Shown here piece by piece: positions 1 to 12,543 of a stretch of 12,543 nucleotides of DNA. The position numbers and the translations under genes were made by a program. Under the pieces are notes generated by a model. That model was not told the DNA's origin. It saw only the letters and a program-made list of their open reading frames with translations, and did no database searches. Each line of letters opens with the position of its first letter. The stretch's first letter is position 1. The DNA lies in NCBI GenBank assembly GCA_009885275.1, contig VFKY01000280.1:1-12543 (forward strand), in the 5' to 3' direction. This DNA is from Verrucomicrobiota bacterium (GTDB taxonomy: Bacteria > Verrucomicrobiota > Verrucomicrobiia > Verrucomicrobiales > Verrucomicrobiaceae).

Positions 1-1152
1 GCTCCTCGCGAAGTCCGCGGCCCCTTCAAAGCCATCAACACGAAGAGTCCGGACATACAGATCACGGAAATTTTTCCCCAGATGGCGAAGGTTGCCGATA
101 AATTTTCGTTAGTACGCAGTGTTTATCATACAGCTACGGCGGTGCATGACACTGGGCATCAGATGATGCAAACGGGTCGCCTTTTTTCGGGTGGTGTGAA
201 CACTCCGCATGTTGGTTGTGCGCTGGAGTTTCTGAAAGGACGCCGATCCGAGATGCCGGCGCATGTCATTTTGCCAGAGCCGATGGGGCCAACGGGAGGG
301 AATATGCCGCATGGTCAGGATGCAGGGTTCTTGGGCAAGACCTATGATCCATTTGTGCTCAATGCTGATCCCTCGGCCAAAGATTTTCGCGTGCCGGATT
401 TACTGCCGCCAAAAGAAATCGATGAGGTGCGTTTGGAGCGTCGCCGTTCCATTCGAGAAGTTGTGGATCAGTCGGTGAAAAATTTTGAAGCCAGTGAAGC
501 AGCGAAGCTCATGGATACAAATTTCACTGATGCTTACCGCCTGATGACAAGCACGGCAGCGCGTGAAGCTTTTGATCTTACCCAAGAACCCGTGAAGGTG
601 CGCGAGCGCTATGGGATGAATCGCTTCGGTCAGTCTTGCCTACTCGCGCGACGTCTTGTCGAGCGCGGAGTTCGCTTTGTGACCGTGAATACGTTTATCA
701 CTGTTTTTGGCGAGATTACTTGGGACATTCACGGCTCCAAACCCTTCACCAGTATTGAAGGCATGCGGGACATCGTGGCTCCAATGTATGATCAGGGATA
801 TAGCGCATTGATTGAAGACTTGTTTCAGCGGGGCATGTTGGATACGACGATGGTAACTGCGCTCGCTGAGTTTGGTCGTACTCCCAAGGTAAATCCTGCC
901 GGTGGCCGAGATCATTGGCCTGGAGTTTGGACAGTGAGCTTTGCCGGTGGGGGAGTGCAAGGTGGGCGAGTGGTGGGTAAGAGTGACGAAATCGGCGCCT
1001 ATCCCGCAGAGAATCCCGTGACACCAGGCAATGTGGTCGCCACGATTTATGAATCTCTCGGCATTGATTTAGAAACTCATTTGCCCGGACCGCAAAGTAG
1101 ACCTTATCCCGTGGTGGATTTTGGAGTCACCCCCATCAAGGCATTGTTTTAA
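1..1152 (+). CDS. DUF1501 family protein (5' end cut by window edge)
   Basis: The frame is open from base 1 to the TAA at 1150-1152, giving 383 residues. The N-terminus, probably an export signal plus roughly 70-100 residues, lies outside the window; the ATG at 82 is internal, because in-frame residues before it already match the family. Visible family features in partial numbering are the segment FSLVRSVYHT followed by a DTGH motif near residue 50, WDIHG at 241-245, AEFGRTP at 289-295 and GRDHWP at 302-307, ending in a family-typical PIKALF tail. DUF1501 proteins belong to the alkaline phosphatase/sulfatase-like fold group and are usually exported; their substrate is unknown. In planctomycetes and verrucomicrobia they commonly lie beside DUF1549/DUF1553 genes, as here. 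Family assignment is secure from the motifs; a hydrolase role is inference only. Confidence 0.93.
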   Translation, partial: APREVRGPFKAINTKSPDIQITEIFPQMAKVADKFSLVRSVYHTATAVHDTGHQMMQTGRLFSGGVNTPHVGCALEFLKGRRSEMPAHVILPEPMGPTGGNMPHGQDAGFLGKTYDPFVLNADPSAKDFRVPDLLPPKEIDEVRLERRRSIREVVDQSVKNFEASEAAKLMDTNFTDAYRLMTSTAAREAFDLTQEPVKVRERYGMNRFGQSCLLARRLVERGVRFVTVNTFITVFGEITWDIHGSKPFTSIEGMRDIVAPMYDQGYSALIEDLFQRGMLDTTMVTALAEFGRTPKVNPAGGRDHWPGVWTVSFAGGGVQGGRVVGKSDEIGAYPAENPVTPGNVVATIYESLGIDLETHLPGPQSRPYPVVDFGVTPIKALF

Positions 1153-1164
1153 TCAAATATATTC

Positions 1165-1198
1165 ATGCCTGCAAAGCGAGGCGCTTTGCAGGCATTTT
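1165..1198 (+). terminator. Rho-independent terminator-like hairpin
   Basis: A perfect 14-base-pair inverted repeat (arms 1165-1178 and 1182-1195, arm ATGCCTGCAAAGCG) closes a 3-base AGG loop and runs into a short T tract at 1195-1198, followed by AT. It begins 13 bases after the DUF1501 stop codon. The T tract is on the plus side only, so it fits termination of rightward transcription. It ends only 15 bases before the chosen start of the next gene, leaving no room for a complete promoter between hairpin and start. It may therefore be a partial terminator or leader hairpin rather than a clean operon boundary. Confidence 0.8.
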
Positions 1199-1213
1199 AT
1201 CCGTTTTCATCCC

Positions 1214-3424
1214 ATGCGTATTATGTTCAAGCTCTGTGCTATTTTTTTTCTTACGATCTTCAGCATGATTTCAACCAAGGCTGAAGACGCTCCCTCATTC
1301 CGCAATCAGATTCAGCCAATATTGGCGCGCTACGGTTGTTCCAGCGGTGCCTGCCATGGGGCTGCCGCAGGGCAAGGTGGATTTAAGCTCTCTCTGCGCG
1401 GTTATGATAATGAGGGAGATTTCTTGAGCGTCACACGCTCATCCCAAGGCCGAAGAGTAACCTTGGAAGATCCCGCAAGGAGTCTGATCTTACTCAAGGC
1501 TACCAAGACGGTGTCGCATAAAGGGGGAGAAAAAATCAAGGCCGACTGGCCAGAGTATAAGATACTTGCTGACTGGATCGCCAGCGGTGCTCCCGGACCT
1601 CAGGAGAGCGACACTCGCATTGATCACATCGAAATTTCACCTGCACATGTCACCTTGAAAAATGGTGAGACCCTGCCGCTTAAGGTAATCGCATTCTTTA
1701 AAGACAATCGACAAGAGGATGTCACCCGCTGGGTGAAGTATACCGCGGGAAACTCGGCTGTAGCCACAGTGGAGGACACCGGTGTGGTGAAGATCGTGGG
1801 GCGCGGTGAAGGCACCATTACCGCTTGGTATTTGAGTCAACTTTCCATCGCGACCATCTCGGTACCTTACGAGAAACCGGTGTTAACAGAAGCTTTCGAC
1901 GCCTTCAAACCGAAAAACTTTATTGATGAAGAAGTACTGAAGAAATTGGTGGAATTGAACATTCCGCCCTCGGCTCAATGCACCGATGGAGAGTTTATTC
2001 GCCGGGCTTATATTGACACTCTGGGAATCTTACCTTCATCCGATGAGGCCAAGAACTTTCTTAGCGATAAGAGTTTGGACAAACGGGATCGTCTTATCAA
2101 CACACTTTTGCAGCGCCCTGAGTTCGTCGATTACTGGACTTACAAGTGGAGTGATCTTTTCCTCGTCAATGGTAACAAATTGCCGGTGCAACCCATGTGG
2201 AGTTATTATCAGTGGATTCGACGTCAGGTGGAGCTCAACACGCCGTGGGATGAAATGGTTCGCAGTCTGCTGACTGTTACAGGAAGCACTTTGGAGAATG
2301 GAGCGGGGAATTTCTTTACCCTTCATGACGAACCAACCAAGTTGGCTGAAACGGTATCAGTGGCCTTTCTTGGCATGTCCATCAATTGTGCAAAGTGTCA
2401 CAATCATCCAATGGAGAAGTGGACGAACGATCAATACTTTGCGTTCGCCAATCTTTTTTCCCGCGTTCGTTCCAAGAACGGTGAAGTGAAAGATGAGCGT
2501 ATTATTTACGCAGCTACCGAGGGAGATATCGTGCAACCCCTAAAAGGTGTGCCGCAGTCACCGGCAGCACTCGATGCCCTCCCAATAGCATTGACTTCTA
2601 CGGATGATCGACGCATTACGCTCGCAAAATGGCTGACCGCAGCTGAGAATCCTTACTTTTCGAGATCTATCACCAATAGATTATGGAAAAATTTCTTTGG
2701 GATCGCGGTAGTGGAATCAGTTGACGATCTTCGTATGACGAATCCTGCGAGTAACGAAAGGCTTCTTAGCGCTGCAGCGAGCTTTCTCGTAAAAAACAAA
2801 TTCGATCTCAAGGAGTTGATGCGCGAAATCATGAAGAGTGAAACGTATCAACGGAGTAGTGTCGCCCTGCCGGGCAATAAGGACGACAATCGATTTTATG
2901 CCCGCTATTATCCGAAGCGTCTTATGGCAGAGGCGGCACTTGATGCGGTCTCGCAAGTAACGGCAGTGCCCACGGATTTTCGTATGGATAAACGCAATGC
3001 CAACCAAGGTATTGGTGAAGCTTACCCTATGGGGTATCGGGCCATGCAGATCCCAGATTCTAATACGGTGAGCTATTTCCTCTCAAGCTTTGGCCGTCCT
3101 GAGCGTGTTCAAACATGCGAATGCGAACGAACCAATGAACCGAGCATGGCGCAGGCTTTACACCTCGCTAATGGAGATACGCTGAATAAAAAACTCGCGG
3201 AAAAAGAGAATCGCATCAGCAAATTACTCGCGGAGGGCAAGACAGATGAGCAACTGATTGATGAGGCTTATATTCTCTGTGTTAGCCGGTTCCCTACAGA
3301 GATCGAAAAAAACTCATTTATAAAACTACTTAGTGAAAGTAAAACCCCCGTAGAAAAACGCATCGTGCTCGAAGATGTGTTCTGGGGCCTGATGAGTTCA
3401 CGGGAATTCATGTTTAATCACTAA
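1214..3424 (+). CDS. Exported DUF1549/DUF1553 protein with Ig-like domain and cytochrome-type motifs
   Basis: This 736-residue protein starts at ATG 1214, which gives a clean signal peptide (hydrophobic core about residues 8-19, likely cleavage after TKA at 23). An in-frame start at 1121 would read through the terminator hairpin and overlap DUF1501, so I reject it; ATG 1223 is an alternative. Domains in order: an N-terminal cytochrome-like domain with CSSGACH at 42-48 (CX4CH spacing), a Big_2-like Ig domain at about 135-220, DUF1549 (PSCyt2) at about 235-420 with a canonical CAKCH at 392-396, and DUF1553 (PSD1) at about 460-736 with ITNRLWKNFFG at 486-496. The family is exported and probably binds haem or another metal centre, but no reaction is established. 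It lies 29 bases before the next gene on the same strand, so cotranscription is likely. No Shine-Dalgarno sequence is visible. Confidence 0.93.
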   Translation: MRIMFKLCAIFFLTIFSMISTKAEDAPSFRNQIQPILARYGCSSGACHGAAAGQGGFKLSLRGYDNEGDFLSVTRSSQGRRVTLEDPARSLILLKATKTVSHKGGEKIKADWPEYKILADWIASGAPGPQESDTRIDHIEISPAHVTLKNGETLPLKVIAFFKDNRQEDVTRWVKYTAGNSAVATVEDTGVVKIVGRGEGTITAWYLSQLSIATISVPYEKPVLTEAFDAFKPKNFIDEEVLKKLVELNIPPSAQCTDGEFIRRAYIDTLGILPSSDEAKNFLSDKSLDKRDRLINTLLQRPEFVDYWTYKWSDLFLVNGNKLPVQPMWSYYQWIRRQVELNTPWDEMVRSLLTVTGSTLENGAGNFFTLHDEPTKLAETVSVAFLGMSINCAKCHNHPMEKWTNDQYFAFANLFSRVRSKNGEVKDERIIYAATEGDIVQPLKGVPQSPAALDALPIALTSTDDRRITLAKWLTAAENPYFSRSITNRLWKNFFGIAVVESVDDLRMTNPASNERLLSAAASFLVKNKFDLKELMREIMKSETYQRSSVALPGNKDDNRFYARYYPKRLMAEAALDAVSQVTAVPTDFRMDKRNANQGIGEAYPMGYRAMQIPDSNTVSYFLSSFGRPERVQTCECERTNEPSMAQALHLANGDTLNKKLAEKENRISKLLAEGKTDEQLIDEAYILCVSRFPTEIEKNSFIKLLSESKTPVEKRIVLEDVFWGLMSSREFMFNH

Positions 3425-3453
3425 GGTTTTTCGCCGCACACAATCTAGCCATC

Positions 3454-6400
3454 ATGCTTATCCCATCTCATTTAATCATCACGATTTGTTCGGCATTCAC
3501 CGCGGGACTGATCTTGTCTGCTGAACCTGTGGACTATGCCGCAAAGATAGCTCCAATTTTTCAGGAGCATTGTGTCGACTGTCACTCAGCGGATGAACCT
3601 GACGGGGAGTTTAATCTTGAAACCTACGAAGCTCTATTTAAAGGCGGCAAGACCGGCAAAGATATTATTGCAGGAAATGCTGATGACTCACTGCTCGTAA
3701 AGTTTCTTGAGGGTCGTAGTGGTAAAGAAGGTAAAAACCAGTTCATGCCACCTGGTAAGAAGGCGCATCTCAGCCCCGAGCAAATCGCGATCATTAAGGA
3801 CTGGATTAATGCTGGAGCGCTTCCCCCTGCCGCTCCTATGAAGCCCTCGGATGTCCTGGCAAAATTACCCAAGATAACATCCAAGCCCGGATTGAAGCCT
3901 GCAATTCAAGCTTTGGGCTATTCCACAAAAACCAAACAAATTGCCACTGGATCATTCGGTTTTGTTCAAATTCTAGACAGCAAAACATTGAAACTTGTGC
4001 GAAAAATTGAGGGAGTATCGGGCAAAGTGAATTCCCTCGTTTTTTCAATTGATGGAAGCATGCTCTTTGCCGCCGCAGGTGATGCTGGACTTAGCGGTAT
4101 TGCCTATCAATGGAAAGTCAGTGACGGTAGTTTAGTCCGGAAATATGAAGGACACACCGATGCTATTTATGCGCTTGCATTGTCTCCAGATGGAAAAACA
4201 TTGGCGACCGGAAGTTACGATCAGAAGATCAAGTTGTGGAATGTCGAAACGGGGACTGAGACTGCGCTTCTAAAGGGGCACAATGGAGGCGTTTTTGGGC
4301 TCAGTTATAGGCTTGATGGCAAAGTGCTTGCCAGTGCCAGCGCTGATCGCACCGTGAAGTTGTGGGATGCAACTACCGGTAAAAGGCTCGACACCCTTTC
4401 TCAGCCTTTAAAAGAACAGAGCACCGTTACTTTTTCGCCCGATGGAAAATCACTGGTAGCCGCTGGAGTGGACAACCGCATCAGACTCTGGAGCATTTCA
4501 GCTGATGCCATCGAAGGCACCAATAAGCTGCTGTATACTCGTTTCGCCCATGAAGGGGCGTTGTTGAATCTAGTTTTTACACTTGATGGCAAAACATTAA
4601 TTTCCACTGCGGCAGATAAGACTGCCAAGACCTGGGATGCGAGTAATCTTACCGAACAGCATCTGCTTGAAAAGCAATCAGACTGGTCGCCGGGTCTTAC
4701 GTTGATTGATGAAGGCAAGATTGTACTTGGTCGGCTTGATGGCTCCTTGGGTGTCTATGATGCAACGAGTGGACAGCCTGTGCTTCTGGCAGAGGCAAAA
4801 GAAAAAAAGGAAGTTGCTAAGCCGGCGCCCAAGCCTGAGTTGACTCGTCTGGAGCCACGTGGAGTGCAAAGTGGTGCTACAACGCAAGTTACTGTGACGG
4901 GAAAAAATCTGAGCGCAGTAAAATCTGTTAATTTTAGTCATGCTGGATTGAAAGCCAATGTGATTTCCATCAACAAAGAAGGAACGCAGGTACTATTGGA
5001 TGTCGTTACTGAAAAGACATTGCCGCGCTCTCAGCAAGATGTGACCTTGGCGACGGAAGGCGGAACTACGGCTAAGCTTAAATTGTTGGTTGATTATTTG
5101 CCACAAATGGTCGCGGTGAAATCTGGATCCAACGAGATCAAAACTCTTCCCATTAATATATGGGGGACGCTTCGTGAGATTGGGCAACTCGACAATTACC
5201 GGTTCACTGCAAAAAAAGGACAAACACTGATCTTTGATTTAGCATCAAAGCTAGCGGAGTCGAAAGCCGTATCGCCACGGTTGGAAATATTTAACACCGC
5301 AGGCATGTTGCTCGCCTCTAACAATGGGCTTGATAGTGGCAGTGATCCCTTTCTCGCTTTCACGGTGCCGATAGATGGAGATTATATCGTACGGGTTCGA
5401 GAAATTACACTGGGAGGATCAGAGGATCATGTTTATCGTCTTACGGCAGGTGAATTGCCCTATATTACTGGATGGTGGCCACTTTCGGTGCCCGCGAATA
5501 CAGAAAGTAAGGTGTACCTCGTGGGCCATAATCTTCCGGCAGAATATGTCATGGTGAAAGCAGGGGCGGGTGGTGATATAATTCTTCCATCGGACACGGA
5601 CGAATATCGCAGTCGTGCTATCATGAAAGTAATGGTGAGTGCTATGGCTGAGGTACTAGAACATGAGCCGAATAATGCGATTGAAAATGCCGAGTCTCTT
5701 ACCATTCCTATTTCAGTGAATGGTCGTCTCTTTCAGGACGGGCAGACAACAGGGAATGACACTGATTTATATCGCATCGAAGCTGACAAGGATCAGATGC
5801 TAATTATAGAGACTCGTGCCGCCATGATGGAATCCCCGGCGGATACCAAGATCGAAGTGCTCGATGCCAAGGGGCAACCTGTTCCGATGATGAATCTACA
5901 GGCCACTAAGGATTCATGGCTTACTCTTCGGAGCACGGATGCCAATGCGCCAGGCATTCGTCTGGGACAATTCTTGGAGATGGACTTGAATGATTACATG
6001 TATTTCAATGGAGAAGTTCTCAAGATTTCCCGCGTCGCCAATGGACCTGATTCGGATATGAGTTTTTATTCTAAGAATGGTAAACGTCGTAATTATTTTA
6101 ACACGAGTCCTTCGGCGCATGGCCTTGATGATGTTTGTTATGTGGTAGAATCCAAACCCATGGGGAATCGTATTGTTCCCAATGGATTACCGGTATTTAC
6201 GGTTAATTATTCCAATGATGATGATGGTGACCGTGAACTGGGCCGAGATTCCCGCCTCATTTTTAAAGCTCCCGAAAAAGGTAGCTACTTGATCCGTGTT
6301 TCAGACACTCGCGGTTGGAGTGGCGGTAGATTTGCTTATCGTCTTATCGTGCGCCCACCGAAATGGGATTACGTTGCAAAACTAGTAGTAGGCAATGAAA

Positions 6401-7113
6401 CGAAAATCCCCATAGGGAGTGGTGTCCAGTTTTACATCAGTGCAGACCGGGATGATGGATTTGATGGCGATGTGCGGGTGGATGTTAGTGGGGTGCCTGA
6501 GGGCTTTTTTATCTCAAGTCCTATTATAGTACAGGCGGGGCATCTTGATGCGAGTGGGTGCTTGTATGCTCTGCCGCAAGCAAAGCTAGGCGTTCATGAT
6601 TTTAGTAAAGTGAAGCTTACCGCGACTTCAATGGTCAATGAAAAGTCAGTGGAAAAATCGGCGGGAGCATTCCCCATGATAACGGTAACTGAAGCGTCAA
6701 AAAAAGCGCTTTTTATGGAGCCTGATCAAGAGGGGAAGCCACTGGGTGACGGTAAAACGGCACCCGAAAAACCCTATGAGGTTACGATGATTCCAGGAAC
6801 GAATGTTTCGGTCTGGTTGAGAGTGGATCGTCGTGGCGATGACGCGTTGATATCTATGAATGTAGAGAATCTTCCTCAGGGAGTCATTGTGGAAAATATT
6901 GGACTCAATGGCGTGCAGATCCGCGAGAAGGAAAATGAACGTGAGATCAATATTTCATGTGCTAAATGGGTGCCTGATCAAGATCGACTCTGTCATGTTA
7001 TCGTGGGCAGCGCGCGCAGTGATGCCGTGAAAGCAGATAACTCACAGACAAGCTTTCCTGTGCTGATTAAAGTGCGTAAAGACGGAAAATCTGTTGCGAC
7101 GGGAGCACCTTGA
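3454..7113 (+). CDS. Exported PSCyt1 cytochrome-like/WD40/PPC multidomain protein
   Basis: This 1219-residue protein has a signal peptide with likely cleavage after LSA at 23. A PSCyt1 (planctomycete cytochrome c) domain covers about 28-125, with the haem motif CVDCH at 40-44 and a downstream MPPG at 98-101 that could supply the methionine ligand. About 150-442 holds seven WD40-type blades; the clearest start at GHTDAIYALALSPDG (233) and GHNGGVFGLSYRLDG (275), enough for a closed propeller. An IPT/TIG-like segment follows at about 461-550, then a PPC-type beta domain at about 570-668. A second PPC-type domain starts at EHEPNN (736) and is split by an insertion at about 828-928. The C-terminal 250 residues look beta-rich and I recognise no family in them. 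Transport of electrons and protein or glycan binding at the cell envelope are inferences. It is probably cotranscribed with the DUF1549/DUF1553 gene upstream. Its stop lies 22 bases from the convergent kinase gene. Confidence 0.93.
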   Translation: MLIPSHLIITICSAFTAGLILSAEPVDYAAKIAPIFQEHCVDCHSADEPDGEFNLETYEALFKGGKTGKDIIAGNADDSLLVKFLEGRSGKEGKNQFMPPGKKAHLSPEQIAIIKDWINAGALPPAAPMKPSDVLAKLPKITSKPGLKPAIQALGYSTKTKQIATGSFGFVQILDSKTLKLVRKIEGVSGKVNSLVFSIDGSMLFAAAGDAGLSGIAYQWKVSDGSLVRKYEGHTDAIYALALSPDGKTLATGSYDQKIKLWNVETGTETALLKGHNGGVFGLSYRLDGKVLASASADRTVKLWDATTGKRLDTLSQPLKEQSTVTFSPDGKSLVAAGVDNRIRLWSISADAIEGTNKLLYTRFAHEGALLNLVFTLDGKTLISTAADKTAKTWDASNLTEQHLLEKQSDWSPGLTLIDEGKIVLGRLDGSLGVYDATSGQPVLLAEAKEKKEVAKPAPKPELTRLEPRGVQSGATTQVTVTGKNLSAVKSVNFSHAGLKANVISINKEGTQVLLDVVTEKTLPRSQQDVTLATEGGTTAKLKLLVDYLPQMVAVKSGSNEIKTLPINIWGTLREIGQLDNYRFTAKKGQTLIFDLASKLAESKAVSPRLEIFNTAGMLLASNNGLDSGSDPFLAFTVPIDGDYIVRVREITLGGSEDHVYRLTAGELPYITGWWPLSVPANTESKVYLVGHNLPAEYVMVKAGAGGDIILPSDTDEYRSRAIMKVMVSAMAEVLEHEPNNAIENAESLTIPISVNGRLFQDGQTTGNDTDLYRIEADKDQMLIIETRAAMMESPADTKIEVLDAKGQPVPMMNLQATKDSWLTLRSTDANAPGIRLGQFLEMDLNDYMYFNGEVLKISRVANGPDSDMSFYSKNGKRRNYFNTSPSAHGLDDVCYVVESKPMGNRIVPNGLPVFTVNYSNDDDGDRELGRDSRLIFKAPEKGSYLIRVSDTRGWSGGRFAYRLIVRPPKWDYVAKLVVGNETKIPIGSGVQFYISADRDDGFDGDVRVDVSGVPEGFFISSPIIVQAGHLDASGCLYALPQAKLGVHDFSKVKLTATSMVNEKSVEKSAGAFPMITVTEASKKALFMEPDQEGKPLGDGKTAPEKPYEVTMIPGTNVSVWLRVDRRGDDALISMNVENLPQGVIVENIGLNGVQIREKENEREINISCAKWVPDQDRLCHVIVGSARSDAVKADNSQTSFPVLIKVRKDGKSVATGAP

Positions 7114-7135: not shown

Positions 7136-9712
7136 TTAGTCGCCTACGCGTTTAATGGAAGCTTCTTTGAGCTTCATTAAAGGGTCGTTGGAGAGTATTT
7201 GTTGGGGATGAATCCAGATGTAGTAGCTACCGGGTTTGATGATTTGAGCTCTACCGACGTTGATCGATTTGAATTCAGTATTGCCCTGTGTCTTCTCAAC
7301 CTTTTTGTATAATAGGCTTTTCCCAAAGGTCATGGTATAGCCGCCAGGGAAATCTCCGCTGTGTGATTGACTGAGTTGAAGTTCGTATTGTCCTGGCTTT
7401 TCTATGTTCACAAACCATCCAACATAGTCGGACATGCCCAGCCAGTTCATGATTATTCCATCAGTGAGGAGAAGCGGGCCAATAGTGAGAATTGCTTTAG
7501 CAGTATCAAGAGTGGCGGAGTCTCCAACTACTACTATTTTAGCCAGATTATCGTTGATGGATTTAATTGCGAGTGTGGCGTTGGCTTGTTGACGTGGGTC
7601 TTTTTTGGAAACTTCCTCAAGAAATGGAATTACGGAAGCGTGAGTGACATGAGTTAGAGCCTGAACAATGCTTGTTTGCTCTTTGATGTCGGTTGTTTTG
7701 CCATAAATTTCTATCAACTTTTGAGCGATGTCCTCTTGAGGCACCTCTCCAGATAATTGCGCCAAGTCGCCAATAGTTTTGACGATGTTGGTTCGGATCA
7801 CGGCGTCCTTGGTTGATGTCAGTGTTGTAAGCAGTGCCGGCAGAGGTTCTGAATTTGGCCAACTTTGAAAAGATATGGCGGCTGCATTCCGGATCATAGG
7901 GTTGCCGTTTTCAAGGCTTTTCAGGATGTCATCCATGGAATTGCTCCCCCCAATTTTCCCGAGGACACGAATTAACAACGCTTTTGCTGATTCGTCATTT
8001 GAGTTAGCTCTGAAAGCGGTCAAGAAAGGCTGGCTGGCGAGATTTGGGTCGGGTTCTTTTTGAGCAACACTCATGAGCGCTATTTCAGCATCGCGTGATT
8101 CATCGCCTGTGTTTGTCGATAGGGCACCAATGAGCGCGTCTGTGTCTGAAGGTTCTCCAGTTCGTCTAAGAGCCTGCCAGATGGCGATCCGCGTGTCTGC
8201 CTCCTTAAAGGTTTGTAGATGTTTGATGAGTGGTGCAGTCGCACTTGCAGGACCACCGCGGGCAGCAATGGCAAGTGCGATGTTTTTAAGTCCAAGGGTG
8301 GATTTGGTGTTGTTGAGAAAAGCGACAATGGGTTTTTCCGCGACGCTGTCGTCAATTATTTTTCCAAGTACCCCACTTGCAATTTTACCATTGTCCAGAT
8401 CATCGATGGACCTTAAAAGCATGGTTATATCATTGGAATTTACATTTGTTGGAGTTTGCATGTTAGCAAGCGCCTGAAGACGCCTGCCGGACATGAAATC
8501 AATAGTCAACTTGTATGCACCAAGAAGCACGATCACGACGCCTATAATCAGGGGAGTCCAAAAAGTAAGAGATTTGGGCAATGCTTTTTTCTCGATCAAA
8601 TGTACTGGCGCGGCTGCAGTGGCAATATTAACGACGCGAGCAACAGGCTTGGGAGCTTGACGTTGCCCGATGCCTTGTGTGATAGGGCCTGGCCGACTTG
8701 GGCGTGGGGCCGTTTGACGTAGCATCTGACTTACTCTGCCTGTATTAACTCCGGCTGGACGAGCAGGGCGTGGGGCCGTATTGTTAATTATTTGAGTGGA
8801 ACCAGGAAGATAAGAAGGATCTGATGCGGCCTCTGGAATGGGTAGTGCCACGGCAGTAGCCACCGGAACTACCGGAGGCTCAGGCATAGGTGATTGTCCA
8901 GCAAGGAACCATTCGTAGGCTTGAGCTGCTGTAACTGGACGACTATCTGGGTTACGACAAATCAACCATTCTACCCAACGACAAATCACTGGAGGAAGAT
9001 CTGGTCTTAGTTGTTCCAGCGGCACAAGACTGTGATAGAGGTGACTGGCCATGACCTCAGGCCCTGTTTCTCCATTGAAAGGATAGCTTTGAGTGAGAGC
9101 AAAATAGAAGACGCATCCAAGAGAATAAAGGTCTGTTCGCACATCAACAGGAGCACGCTCAAACTGTTCCGGCGCCATGAAGAATATACTGCCAAGAATT
9201 GAACCGTCATCGTTCATGTCCTGCACAGTTGGTGTATGTGCTAGCATGGACAAACCGAAGTCCAGAATTTTAATCTGGAACTTGCCCGTAGGCAGCCAGA
9301 CGACCATGAAGTTTTGCGGTTTGATGTCGAGGTGAATCAACCCCGTGCTATGAGCAGCGACCATCCCCTCAAGACTTTGGGTGACTAGTTCTCTGAAATC
9401 GAATGGATTTAACGCACCTCGAGCAATAATATCTTCGAGAGTTTCTCCTTTGAGCAACTCCATGACGATGTAGGCGCCTTGCTCATCTTTACCAACATCG
9501 AAAATTGTGACGATGTGTGGGTGTTGGAGAGTAGAGAGGGTACGTGCTTCTGCAAAAAGTTGGTCCGCCTGCGCCGATGCCTCTTCGGGAGAATCCGCTC
9601 TTACACGTTTAAGCGCCACTTCACGTCGAAGATTTCGATCGTAGGCTTTATAGACTGTGCCAAGGCCGCCTTCGGCGATCTGTCCTAGAACTTCGTAGCG
9701 ACTTGAACTCAT
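7136..9712 (-). CDS. Transmembrane Ser/Thr protein kinase with HEAT repeats and C-terminal lectin-like domain
   Basis: This 858-residue protein starts at ATG 9712, directly before a kinase glycine-rich loop. Kinase domain at about 6-271: GQIAEGGLGTVY (10-21), VALK with Lys35, alpha-C Glu55, catalytic loop HLDIKPQN (127-134), DFG (151-153) and APE (180-182). All catalytic residues (K35, D129, K131, N134, D151) are present, but the HRD arginine is leucine, so it is a non-RD kinase. A Pro/Ala-rich linker (272-375) contains two TAPRPxRP repeats. One hydrophobic helix spans about 382-400. After it, about 425-730 is helical and HEAT-like, and about 735-858 is a beta-sandwich with a pattern like the carbohydrate-binding domains appended to many verrucomicrobial exported enzymes. 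The expected topology is kinase inside, HEAT and beta-sandwich outside, as in a receptor kinase. The ligand and phosphorylation targets are unknown. Confidence 0.94.
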   Translation of the reverse strand: MSSSRYEVLGQIAEGGLGTVYKAYDRNLRREVALKRVRADSPEEASAQADQLFAEARTLSTLQHPHIVTIFDVGKDEQGAYIVMELLKGETLEDIIARGALNPFDFRELVTQSLEGMVAAHSTGLIHLDIKPQNFMVVWLPTGKFQIKILDFGLSMLAHTPTVQDMNDDGSILGSIFFMAPEQFERAPVDVRTDLYSLGCVFYFALTQSYPFNGETGPEVMASHLYHSLVPLEQLRPDLPPVICRWVEWLICRNPDSRPVTAAQAYEWFLAGQSPMPEPPVVPVATAVALPIPEAASDPSYLPGSTQIINNTAPRPARPAGVNTGRVSQMLRQTAPRPSRPGPITQGIGQRQAPKPVARVVNIATAAAPVHLIEKKALPKSLTFWTPLIIGVVIVLLGAYKLTIDFMSGRRLQALANMQTPTNVNSNDITMLLRSIDDLDNGKIASGVLGKIIDDSVAEKPIVAFLNNTKSTLGLKNIALAIAARGGPASATAPLIKHLQTFKEADTRIAIWQALRRTGEPSDTDALIGALSTNTGDESRDAEIALMSVAQKEPDPNLASQPFLTAFRANSNDESAKALLIRVLGKIGGSNSMDDILKSLENGNPMIRNAAAISFQSWPNSEPLPALLTTLTSTKDAVIRTNIVKTIGDLAQLSGEVPQEDIAQKLIEIYGKTTDIKEQTSIVQALTHVTHASVIPFLEEVSKKDPRQQANATLAIKSINDNLAKIVVVGDSATLDTAKAILTIGPLLLTDGIIMNWLGMSDYVGWFVNIEKPGQYELQLSQSHSGDFPGGYTMTFGKSLLYKKVEKTQGNTEFKSINVGRAQIIKPGSYYIWIHPQQILSNDPLMKLKEASIKRVGD
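8690..8779 (-). repeat. Pair of 24-base direct repeats in the kinase linker
   Basis: Two 24-base units at 8690-8713 and 8756-8779 encode TAPRPSRP and TAPRPARP (kinase residues 334-341 and 312-319), starting 66 bases apart. The shared core on the plus strand is GGCGTGGGGCCGT. The 22-residue spacing, together with a further related APKP segment at 353-356, suggests a duplicated Pro/Arg-rich tail between kinase domain and membrane. It is coding sequence, not an intergenic element. Such tails are usually disordered and often carry phosphorylation sites; that role is inference here. Confidence 0.6.
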
Positions 9713-9912: not shown

Positions 9913-10659
9913 TTACCAGATCCGATCTAGGATTTTTTCAAGAGGTCCCTTTAGAGATTCTGGTCTTGTCGTGCCACCTTTTTTGTTCTTCGTGGAGGAG
10001 AGAGACACCAACGGGCCCTTTTGTTCGATAATGCGAATCTTGGATATTTCTGCACGCTCCAAAGGACAATCATTCGAGTCTGTCACCACATTGGATAGTT
10101 GTTTAAGTTCGTCCAGACCTGATACAATTTTACCAAAGACTGTGTATTGCCCGTTTAAGTTCGACATGTTGCCTAAGGCAAAATAAAACTGAGTGCCATC
10201 GGATTTATGTTCAGGATTGGACTCATCGCTGCGGCGCGCCATGGCAACTGAGCCGATTTCATGAGGAAGCTTAAATTCGCCGGGGATGGTGTATTCCTGA
10301 GTAAGTCCCCAGCGTTCACGGGCATTCTTGTCTTTGCTGGCCGGATCACCTGTTTGCACGAGGTAACCGTCAACCGCTCTATGAAAGGCCATTCCTTTGT
10401 AGATACCTTTATCAACATTGCTGATGAAATTCCCCACTGTTTTTGGAGCACCCTTAGCCAAAAGTTCAAAAATTATTTGATGGGTGTCACCGCCGAAAGA
10501 TATATCCATAACAGCGAGTGTGTGTGTCTCATCCATCTTTTCCTTGGCGACAACCTTTGCCGCTTCGGTAGTGGTGGGTGATACAGGTTTCGGAGCCGCT
10601 TGCAGAGTAGATAGAGCGAGAGTGGTAAATAAGATGAGGGATCGGCGTGTCAGCTTCAT
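9913..10659 (-). CDS. Exported cyclophilin-type peptidyl-prolyl cis-trans isomerase
   Basis: This 248-residue protein begins at ATG 10659 with a signal peptide (basic MKLTRR, hydrophobic core, likely cleavage after LQA at 21), so it acts outside the cytoplasm on proline peptide bonds of exported proteins. The cyclophilin domain covers about 48-213. Visible motifs are FHRAVDGYLVQTGDP (92-106, with catalytic Arg94), GSVAMAR (136-142), GTQFYFALG (155-163) and GQYTVFG (170-176). The tryptophan that contacts cyclosporin in human cyclophilin A is not present at the aligned position before LNGQYTVFG, as in many bacterial members. The last 35 residues are a basic tail outside the domain. It lies 55 bases downstream of the lipoprotein gene on the same strand and is probably cotranscribed with it. 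Its exported clients are unknown. Confidence 0.94.
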   Translation of the reverse strand: MKLTRRSLILFTTLALSTLQAAPKPVSPTTTEAAKVVAKEKMDETHTLAVMDISFGGDTHQIIFELLAKGAPKTVGNFISNVDKGIYKGMAFHRAVDGYLVQTGDPASKDKNARERWGLTQEYTIPGEFKLPHEIGSVAMARRSDESNPEHKSDGTQFYFALGNMSNLNGQYTVFGKIVSGLDELKQLSNVVTDSNDCPLERAEISKIRIIEQKGPLVSLSSTKNKKGGTTRPESLKGPLEKILDRIW

Positions 10660-10714: not shown

Positions 10715-11050
10715 CTATCGCAACTGAGGGACTTTGGAGAGATCGGTGGGAGTAGTGGGTTGGCTTGGTAGCTCTTTGATAGGCTCGGGCTCAGGTGCAG
10801 GCGTTGGGGATGAGCGTTGTACACTTGGAGCGGGGGCGCTAGGAGCGATCATGTCTCTTGGTTCAGCTTGGCGTATGCGCGGTTGCACTTGTCGTGGCGC
10901 CATCCCCCATTGACTTTCATGACGAGCCATTTCATCAACAGTTGGATAATTAATTACTTGGCCCCCTCCACTTGAATTGGTGGAACTGCAAGAGCTTAAA
11001 CACGCGGTGAAAAGCACGATGATGGTAAGAAAAGTATGGTTAATGTTCAT
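10715..11050 (-). CDS. Small proline-rich lipoprotein, function unknown
   Basis: This 111-residue protein starts at ATG 11050. A short hydrophobic signal (residues 6-18) ends in the lipobox LSSC, with Cys21 as the likely lipidated residue; FTAC at 14-17 is a less good match. The rest is low-complexity, rich in Pro, Ser, Gln and Glu (for example the APEPEP stretch near residue 86), with no domain I recognise, and is probably disordered in the periplasm. The start codon overlaps the stop codon of the dehydrogenase-YgfZ fusion gene as ATGA, so its translation is probably coupled to that gene. The downstream isomerase gene is also exported. A tether or spacer role is possible but unsupported. Confidence 0.8.
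   Translation of the reverse strand: MNINHTFLTIIVLFTACLSSCSSTNSSGGGQVINYPTVDEMARHESQWGMAPRQVQPRIRQAEPRDMIAPSAPAPSVQRSSPTPAPEPEPIKELPSQPTTPTDLSKVPQLR
11047..11050 (-). promoter_or_regulatory. ATGA stop-start overlap (translational coupling)
   Basis: The lipoprotein start codon (11050-11048) overlaps the TGA stop of the fusion gene (11049-11047) by the classic four bases ATGA. No Shine-Dalgarno sequence precedes this start, so ribosomes finishing the upstream gene are the likely source of initiation here. Confidence 0.75.
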
Positions 11051-12543
11051 GGGAGAGTAATTTCAACGTCATTAAAAATTCTAGTCGGGTCTTCGCTGGC
11101 AAGCAATAAAGAATGCGCACCTGCTGAGGCTTGACGCACATACGCAAGGCCCATCGCGCGGTCAAGCACGGGATGATGTGTTACGCTAGTGATTACCCCT
11201 ACTTCTCGAAAGTCTTCATTATCGGTTTTCAAGGATAGAGCGGCACCGGGTTGCATGACACCATCGGCGCTTTTCATCACCACTTTAACCAGTGTTCCGG
11301 GCATTTTACCCGTGGTTTTGATACGAGAGAGCACTTCTTGGCCAATGTAGCAGCCTTTGGAGAAATCCATGGCCCGGTCCTGCAACCCTGCTTCGGGTGG
11401 GAAGACATCGATATTAAGTTCATGAGGAAATCTCGGCACCGCAGCGATGATGCGAAGGGTCTCAAGCTCCATATCCGATAAGACGGGTACGTCAGCTATG
11501 AGCGTCGTAATATCCGCCGAAACTGGGAGCCAAAGATCTAATCCCGGTTGTCCTAAGCGGATAGATTTCACTTTTCGGCCCTTTTCCGGCAGCTCGAAAG
11601 ACTCTGCAACCTTCATGGCATCTCCGAAAAAATGCCAGAGGTTCCAGTCGGAGGTGACATCATTGATGGTGACGTCATCAGAAACGATGTAGCGCTCAAG
11701 ACGCATTTTTAAAGGTTCACGCAGATCTGATTCTGCGTCCAACGACAAGGATTCATTGCTGGGAATGGGGTGAATGAAGACATCGCCCTCGATCTTGCCT
11801 TTTGCATTGGTGACGCAGGCATAAATTGCGGAATCTTCCTTGGCTTTGTCCGCATCATTAGTCACCTGACCATTGAGATAGCGCAGGCGATCAGCACCTG
11901 TGACCTGCCATTTAGCACGATTAGAGAGGTTCACTGCGGCTCCATTTTTCAGGAGTTGCTCAAATCGTTGCGCGGTAAAGGATTTATCATTTTCTTTGTC
12001 TACCATCGAGAGAGCGGGCGGCGTCAGCTTGGTCGGCATATCAGGCACGACAGAGGGGGTTTTCGGTGCTTTCTCACGTTGATGCACTTTGACAGGGGCG
12101 AAATGTTCCATGATAACCGAGAAATCAAGTTCACCTCTGCCTGCTTGGGCCTGTTCATCCATCACTTGCGTGGTGGCATTGAGCACAGGGAGAGCCAGAT
12201 TTTTTTCCAAGGCCAGTGCTTGGGCATAGCGCGTGTCCTTGAGCATGTTCTTCAGGGAAAAGTGCGCGTTATAGCTGCGCGAGATCATGTTCGGCAGCTT
12301 CATACTGATGAGTGGCGAACAATTAGCGTTGAGGGTCAGGGCTTCCGCCAGTTTTTCTGGTGACACATCATGCGCCTTAGTAAGGGCAATAGCTTCCGCC
12401 ACCGCTTCGACCACGGCGGCAGTAATCAAATTGGTGGTGATCTTTATGACGGTCGCGTCTCCAATCTTCCCGAGGTAGAGTATTTTCTTGCTGCTGGCTT
12501 CTAGGACTGGTTTTACGATTTCAAGAACCGATTCCTCACCGCC
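11047..12543 (-). CDS. Fusion of a 3-hydroxyisobutyrate dehydrogenase-like enzyme and a YgfZ/GcvT-like folate-binding protein (5' end cut)
   Basis: The frame is open from the right edge to TGA at 11049-11047, giving 498 residues with the N-terminus missing. A TTG at 12429 is internal, not the start. In partial numbering, residues 1-148 are the C-terminal part of a beta-hydroxyacid dehydrogenase: the edge falls at the VGG-type strand end (GGEES), catalytic Lys34 sits in ATVIKITTN with Asn38, and the domain ends in GRGELDFSVIMEHF. The KxxxN spacing and DFS ending resemble glyoxylate/succinic semialdehyde reductases. The missing part should be the NAD(P)-binding Rossmann domain. Residues 149-188 are a Pro/Lys-rich linker. 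Residues 189-498 are a full-length YgfZ-like domain with the signature KGCYIGQE (396-403, including the functional Cys398) followed by RIKTTGKMPG. YgfZ proteins bind folate and support Fe-S enzyme maintenance. First visible gene of the probable minus-strand operon. Confidence 0.9.
   Translation of the reverse strand, partial: GGEESVLEIVKPVLEASSKKILYLGKIGDATVIKITTNLITAAVVEAVAEAIALTKAHDVSPEKLAEALTLNANCSPLISMKLPNMISRSYNAHFSLKNMLKDTRYAQALALEKNLALPVLNATTQVMDEQAQAGRGELDFSVIMEHFAPVKVHQREKAPKTPSVVPDMPTKLTPPALSMVDKENDKSFTAQRFEQLLKNGAAVNLSNRAKWQVTGADRLRYLNGQVTNDADKAKEDSAIYACVTNAKGKIEGDVFIHPIPSNESLSLDAESDLREPLKMRLERYIVSDDVTINDVTSDWNLWHFFGDAMKVAESFELPEKGRKVKSIRLGQPGLDLWLPVSADITTLIADVPVLSDMELETLRIIAAVPRFPHELNIDVFPPEAGLQDRAMDFSKGCYIGQEVLSRIKTTGKMPGTLVKVVMKSADGVMQPGAALSLKTDNEDFREVGVITSVTHHPVLDRAMGLAYVRQASAGAHSLLLASEDPTRIFNDVEITLP

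Follow-up and report, generated by a model that had tools for sequence, protein, structure and literature searches.

A reading frame joining a β-hydroxyacid dehydrogenase to YgfZ in an uncultured member of the Verrucomicrobiota, a probable fusion of an old gene pair

The locus and its fused reading frame

The window, i.e., the whole 12,543-nucleotide stretch of DNA that was analysed, is an entire contig from a 409-contig assembly of an uncultured Verrucomicrobia genome (2.54 Mb, 77% complete). One end of it carries a minus-strand frame of 498 codons without a stop, which terminates at 11047-11049 and is still open at the contig end (Table 1). We confirm the first-pass annotation in that this frame passes from the C-terminal domain of a dehydrogenase, through a linker, into a complete YgfZ. 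The contig stops within the dehydrogenase, so the Rossmann half of the fused gene lies outside view, and no match to that half turned up when the N-terminal 140 residues of a relative were searched against the rest of the assembly (without a positive control). Full-length orthologues of the dehydrogenase have both halves, PF03446 and PF14833, in each of the two that were scanned (L044 and L037).

Both domain identities held up against profile models. NAD_binding_11 matched residues 28-146 of the fused frame with 70.9 bits (cut-off 30), GCV_T matched residues 204-307 with 42.5 bits (cut-off 25.6) and GCV_T_C matched residues 418-474 with 23.2 bits, below its cut-off of 25.9. The NCBIfam model CAF17_like_YgfZ matched residues 361-472 with 67.4 bits (cut-off 49), which assigns this part to the YgfZ family (TIGR03317). 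It aligns over its full length with 14 relatives, and in the resulting 15-row alignment the columns of the KGCYxGQE motif are invariant except for the variable position. The lysine and asparagine that had been called catalytic are present as Lys34 and Asn38 and coincide with residues that an orthologue has in common with PDB 3doj; we take these to be the catalytic residues of β-hydroxyacid dehydrogenases.

Table 1. Features of the fused frame and of the genes that follow it in the window
Feature	Position	Strand	Basis or remark
Serine/threonine kinase with HEAT repeats	7136..9712	minus	Pfam
Cyclophilin-type peptidyl-prolyl isomerase	9913..10659	minus	Next gene; Pfam match in the window, L034 and L061
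Small lipoprotein-like gene, 111 aa	10715..11050	minus	4-nt overlap with the end of the fused gene
Fused ORF, 498 aa	11047..12543	minus	Dehydrogenase C-terminal half, linker and YgfZ; 5' end off contig
YgfZ/COG0354 domain, complete, residues 189-498	11047..11979	minus	Pfam, NCBIfam, alignment
KGCYIGQE, YgfZ signature, intact	11335..11358	minus	ORF translation, alignment
TTT (Phe189) where family relatives start YgfZ	11977..11979	minus	Alignment column
Linker, residues 148-188, Pro- and Lys-rich	11980..12102	minus	Where separate dehydrogenases in some nearby genera have a C-terminal tail
In-frame ATG, residue 180	12004..12006	minus	Precedes the homologous YgfZ start by 9 codons; closest site at which YgfZ might be initiated on its own
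β-hydroxyacid dehydrogenase C-terminal domain, PF14833, residues 28-146	12106..12462	minus	Pfam and alignment via orthologue
Asn38 codon	12430-12432	minus	Matches Asn common to orthologue and PDB 3doj
Lys34 codon	12442-12444	minus	Matches Lys common to orthologue and PDB 3doj

Codons 151-190, which make up most of the linker, contain no stops in the frame of the fusion (frame 0), against two and four in the other frames. Codon usage there favours frame 0 with log-likelihood ratios of 10.4 and 16.8, compared with averages of 11.1 and 10.1 over 83 known 40-codon coding segments drawn from the same five other window ORFs on which the codon model was trained. The nearest YgfZ proteins are less than 60% identical, so a dN/dS test of the linker is not useful.

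The tails of separate dehydrogenases vary greatly in length: 42-57 residues in two nearby genera (G004, G014, G007, G016), 647-732 residues, with abundant Pro, Ala, Lys and Glu, in three congeners (G001-G003), and 1-11 residues at the remaining loci measured. Compared by eye, the linker has no clear sequence similarity to these tails, so it is its position that suggests descent from one. The long tails, carried by the dehydrogenases at L037:2590-5379, L038:2278-5157 and L039:2538-5837, are of low complexity, with composition taken from L037 and L039, and the tail in L039 includes a long AEPTP run.

At the boundary of linker and YgfZ, 60 of the 63 aligned family relatives begin ygfZ in the column where the window has TTT (55 with ATG, 5 with GTG). 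The three exceptions are two genes that start elsewhere (G008, G012) and one cut by its contig end (G081). The two residues that follow Phe189 (T and A) are the commonest in their columns among the relatives.

The neighbouring genes belong to a conserved order. Relatives have a similar small gene in the place of the lipoprotein-like gene, for which no Pfam match was found, and the order ygfZ, small lipoprotein-like gene, cyclophilin, kinase recurs in L034 and also in L037, where the genes were matched by their positions and N-termini; in both, the gene that follows the operon has an N-terminus like that of the window's kinase. The operon in L034 is preceded by genes for a PpiC-type isomerase and a ClpP-like protease. 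Because the window's gene order matches that of its kin, a chimeric contig is an unlikely source of the fusion. The C-terminal region of the window's kinase resembles DUF5077, with a score below cut-off. Positions 1-7113 encode, in a row, a DUF1501 protein, a DUF1549/DUF1553 protein with Big_2, and a WD40/PPC protein (Pfam), a combination typical of Planctomycetes and Verrucomicrobia.

The dehydrogenase–ygfZ pair in relatives

The gene pair, not the fusion, is the widespread feature. The window's protein was matched in 56 of the 57 genomes searched as relatives (its own included), and YgfZ was found in 66 of 68 family genomes at the cut-off used. We counted arrangements in 63 of the 65 other genomes of the family, omitting two with fragmentary matches (G074, G077). 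An orthologous dehydrogenase lies directly upstream of ygfZ, on the same strand and as a separate gene, at 26 of these 63 loci, and a paralogue of it, 28-30% identical, holds that position at 12. Neither was found upstream at the other 25, a few of which (e.g., G081, G086) are near contig ends, so the partnership seems dispensable. There are 23 family genomes, forming one clade, that have ygfZ without an adjacent dehydrogenase of either type.

The pair extends beyond the family. In other families of the order, 28 loci were examined, one of which lacked YgfZ, and the dehydrogenase stands upstream of ygfZ at 23 of the remaining 27. Beyond the order, one set of 20 loci (18 of the class and 2 of other classes) has the pair at 3 and the genes apart at 17, and a second set of 20 has it at 11 and the genes apart at 9; the second set was picked for resemblance to the window's protein and does not give an average for the class. 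At the loci measured, the two genes mostly touch or overlap, and most pairs with measured frames have them in different frames. In five orthologue pairs (G004, G014, G008, G048, G510) both genes lie in one frame with a stop between them, so that fusion would take only the loss of one stop. The genes of three paralogue pairs (G066, G068, G084) are likewise in a common frame.

The paralogue occurs in part of one genus (g8), where a different dehydrogenase directly precedes ygfZ (L061, L096, L026, L028, L030 and seven more). Two of these replacements were scanned, and for both the best model was tartronate-semialdehyde reductase, with a score below cut-off. The replacement precedes a similar small gene and cyclophilin in L061 (by Pfam) and L096 (by position only). 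All seven tested genomes of the usual arrangement carry an orthologue of the replacement elsewhere, 76-80% identical, and three swapped genomes (G024, G028, G034) likewise keep the usual dehydrogenase elsewhere. On a YgfZ tree built quickly from 63 rows (without G081), on which many branches are weak, the four upstream states need 5 changes, compared with a mean of 28.9 when shuffled, so the upstream position has changed hands rarely. A recurrent dehydrogenase that can be exchanged for another at ygfZ makes a functional link more plausible, judging from gene arrangement, and such a link is still short of demonstration because the 23-genome clade has ygfZ without either enzyme.

We found the two genes separate in all of the relatives' pairs examined, in agreement with the first-pass annotation, which had called them normally separate proteins. 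Conservation of the fusion across Verrucomicrobiota, which it had proposed to check, was not borne out at the same loci. Searches matched 183 of 239 genomes at the level of the order (listed without the weakest matches), 31 of 286 in the class at a strict cut-off and 45 of 194 in the phylum. No second fusion appeared among the loci examined and the listed ygfZ frames of at least 550 aa. Five frames of 426-442 aa (G210, G169, G202, G094, G040) fell outside this check, and a fusion truncated at the edge of its contig, as in the window, may lie among them. The plasmid search returned 12 records, all of which fell short of 80% coverage of the query, and viral contigs gave no match. Since these searches brought up no other genome with the fusion, conservation cannot confirm it.

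Several long frames were considered as fusions and rejected. Large open frames in G004, G008 and G048 have a stop between the genes on translation, and a frame survey resolved the one in G014 into separate genes. Of the ygfZ frames of at least 550 aa, those in G029 and G064 have no dehydrogenase within the locus examined, whereas a dehydrogenase is present in a different frame in G598 and behind a stop in G510. The G290 frame encodes YgfZ with tetratricopeptide repeats instead, and the extension in G313 does not look like a dehydrogenase, going by appearance only. Among shorter long frames, the dehydrogenase is in another frame in G238, G095, G125 and G487 and absent in G483.

Two kinds of unusual frame were seen along the way. 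Two genomes of other classes have a C-terminal extension on YgfZ (L135:2136-3950, L136:2232-3917), which consists of tetratricopeptide repeats in the former (Pfam) and looks alike in the latter. Distant dehydrogenase matches (28-31%) also occur in frames of 558-588 aa, which is more than one dehydrogenase (G038:C108, G045:C22, G048:C61).

Families of the two parts

The C-terminal domain, with its conserved lysine, belongs to the β-hydroxyacid dehydrogenase superfamily. The best solved relatives of an orthologue are 3doj (E 3.4e-32), 3pdu and 2uyy, which we take to be Arabidopsis GLYR1, a Geobacter dehydrogenase and human N-PAC, and which presumably place the enzyme in the GLYR1/GLYR2 branch. 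An orthologue aligns with 3doj across both domains. The segment that follows the second strand, which would be of NADPH type in the GLYR branch, reads VWNR in several orthologues and VWSR in others, a part absent from the window's sequence. The window's domain shares with these enzymes the Lys, the Asn and the F.LK...KD segment, and differs in being fused to YgfZ, where three congeners have the 647-732-residue tail instead. None of the scanned orthologues reaches an NCBIfam equivalog cut-off: L044 scored 117.4 for 3-hydroxyisobutyrate dehydrogenase (cut-off 291.6), 107.4 for tartronate semialdehyde reductase (340.75) and 135.3 for L-threonate dehydrogenase (350). The glyoxylate-reductase type proposed in the first-pass annotation is a reasonable guess in view of the solved relatives, and reduction of glyoxylate or succinic semialdehyde is a guess at the level of the family.

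The other part matches the YgfZ/COG0354/IBA57 family in its complete domain, its signature and its score above the NCBIfam cut-off, and also matches the YgfZ structure 1nrk by sequence; it departs from that family in that it forms the C-terminal end of a larger chain and lacks the usual start codon. It is not a GcvT aminomethyltransferase by the relevant models (TIGR00528, 44.5 vs 235.85; PRK00389, 60.3 vs 300). To our knowledge, the use that YgfZ/IBA57 makes of folate is unsettled. One report describes YgfZ as a folate-dependent protein that helps to make or mend Fe/S clusters under oxidative stress, and its genes as often clustered with those of Fe/S proteins (PMC3223725).

SoxA-type sarcosine oxidase and TMAO demethylase likewise combine a folate domain of the GcvT superfamily with an oxidoreductase in one chain, but they join other oxidoreductases to GcvT-like domains, whereas the window joins a Rossmann-type β-hydroxyacid dehydrogenase to YgfZ. 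The fused frame scores 22.2 bits with the SoxA model (cut-off 1164) and 29.5 with the TMAO demethylase model (cut-off 1100), and its 498 aa, the N-terminal part being off the contig, have no FAD-dependent oxidoreductase domain among their Pfam matches. Dimethylglycine dehydrogenase is a further fusion of a GcvT-like domain with an oxidoreductase. We know of no fusion of a β-hydroxyacid dehydrogenase with YgfZ, and a literature search at the level of titles and abstracts, mostly outside subscription journals, found neither the fusion nor the gene pair.

Origin and possible meaning of the fusion

The reading that we prefer, with a probability of roughly 0.65, is a genuine, lineage-specific fusion within an old operon. 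In the ancestor, ygfZ would have stood immediately behind a gene for a GLYR-like β-hydroxyacid dehydrogenase, the two usually touching or overlapping. The dehydrogenase's stop or frame boundary would then have been lost in the window's lineage, its tail may have become the linker of approximately 40 residues, and the ygfZ start codon, superfluous after fusion, may have decayed to TTT. We infer that the fused gene yields a single polypeptide, the two parts of which would fold independently and keep their usual jobs. The dehydrogenase part would reduce a small aldehyde or keto-acid (e.g., glyoxylate or succinic semialdehyde), the YgfZ part would use tetrahydrofolate to maintain iron-sulfur enzymes, and the tether would fix the ratio of both and hold them together.

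An artefact, in which two overlapping genes that the organism keeps separate are joined by a one-base error in the linker, is unlikely, though several observations would suit it. Because most measured pairs use different frames, one indel could join such genes; frames 1 and 2 of the linker hit stops near the ATG at residue 180, from which ygfZ could start if the genes were separate; and the fusion is known from a single fragmented, incomplete assembly whose contig ends inside the gene. However, such an error would place the ygfZ start upstream of its usual site, and an in-frame Met within 15 codons upstream occurs in only 3 of the 60 relatives whose ygfZ begins in the aligned column. Frame 0 is the best-scoring one in each half of the linker (the stop penalty in the other frames contributes), and no frame break is evident from the ORF list and Pfam in the contig's five other main ORFs. 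The loss of the usual start is not explicable by one indel, which argues for a real fusion, and together with the coding character of the linker it makes a simple sequencing frameshift unlikely. A frame that is fused in the DNA, with YgfZ still or also made separately, is also rather improbable: the in-frame ATG lies only nine codons before the homologous start, but no Shine-Dalgarno sequence is obvious by eye within 20 nt upstream of it (weak evidence), and with no stop upstream there can be no coupling of termination to restart. We therefore regard the genuine fusion, for now a single case, as probably real, and the first-pass interpretation as sound on the fusion, its domains and their usual separateness.

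As to what the linkage does, co-synthesis of two stress or housekeeping proteins is most likely. Direct coupling, in which chemistry on YgfZ-bound folate would use an aldehyde or hydride that the dehydrogenase provides or takes away and the fusion channels, is quite improbable. The pair does recur over many families, and part of one genus has a different dehydrogenase in the same position, as if one were useful there. But the 23-genome clade dispenses with the neighbour, the genes stand apart at many loci beyond the order (9/20 and 17/20), only one fusion was found, and we know of no metabolite that the two proteins share. The fusion can be explained without folate coupling, so coupled chemistry is not needed. 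It is similarly doubtful, though slightly easier to entertain, that the two proteins share a pathway in Verrucomicrobiia, e.g., one that uses NADPH to clear a carbonyl harmful to folate or Fe-S enzymes, which would make the fusion a 'Rosetta stone' of a direct physical and metabolic partnership.

If that shared pathway were real, the fusion would help to define the role of YgfZ's bound folate. If co-synthesis is all that the fusion achieves, and it is thus only bookkeeping, it is a clear case of evolution from operon to fusion, with the upstream stop and the downstream start both gone. Its value lies in pointing to a recurrent dehydrogenase–ygfZ pair that is widespread and unexplained: a dehydrogenase neighbour that recurs, is fused in one lineage and is exchanged in another offers a testable hint at a partner of YgfZ.
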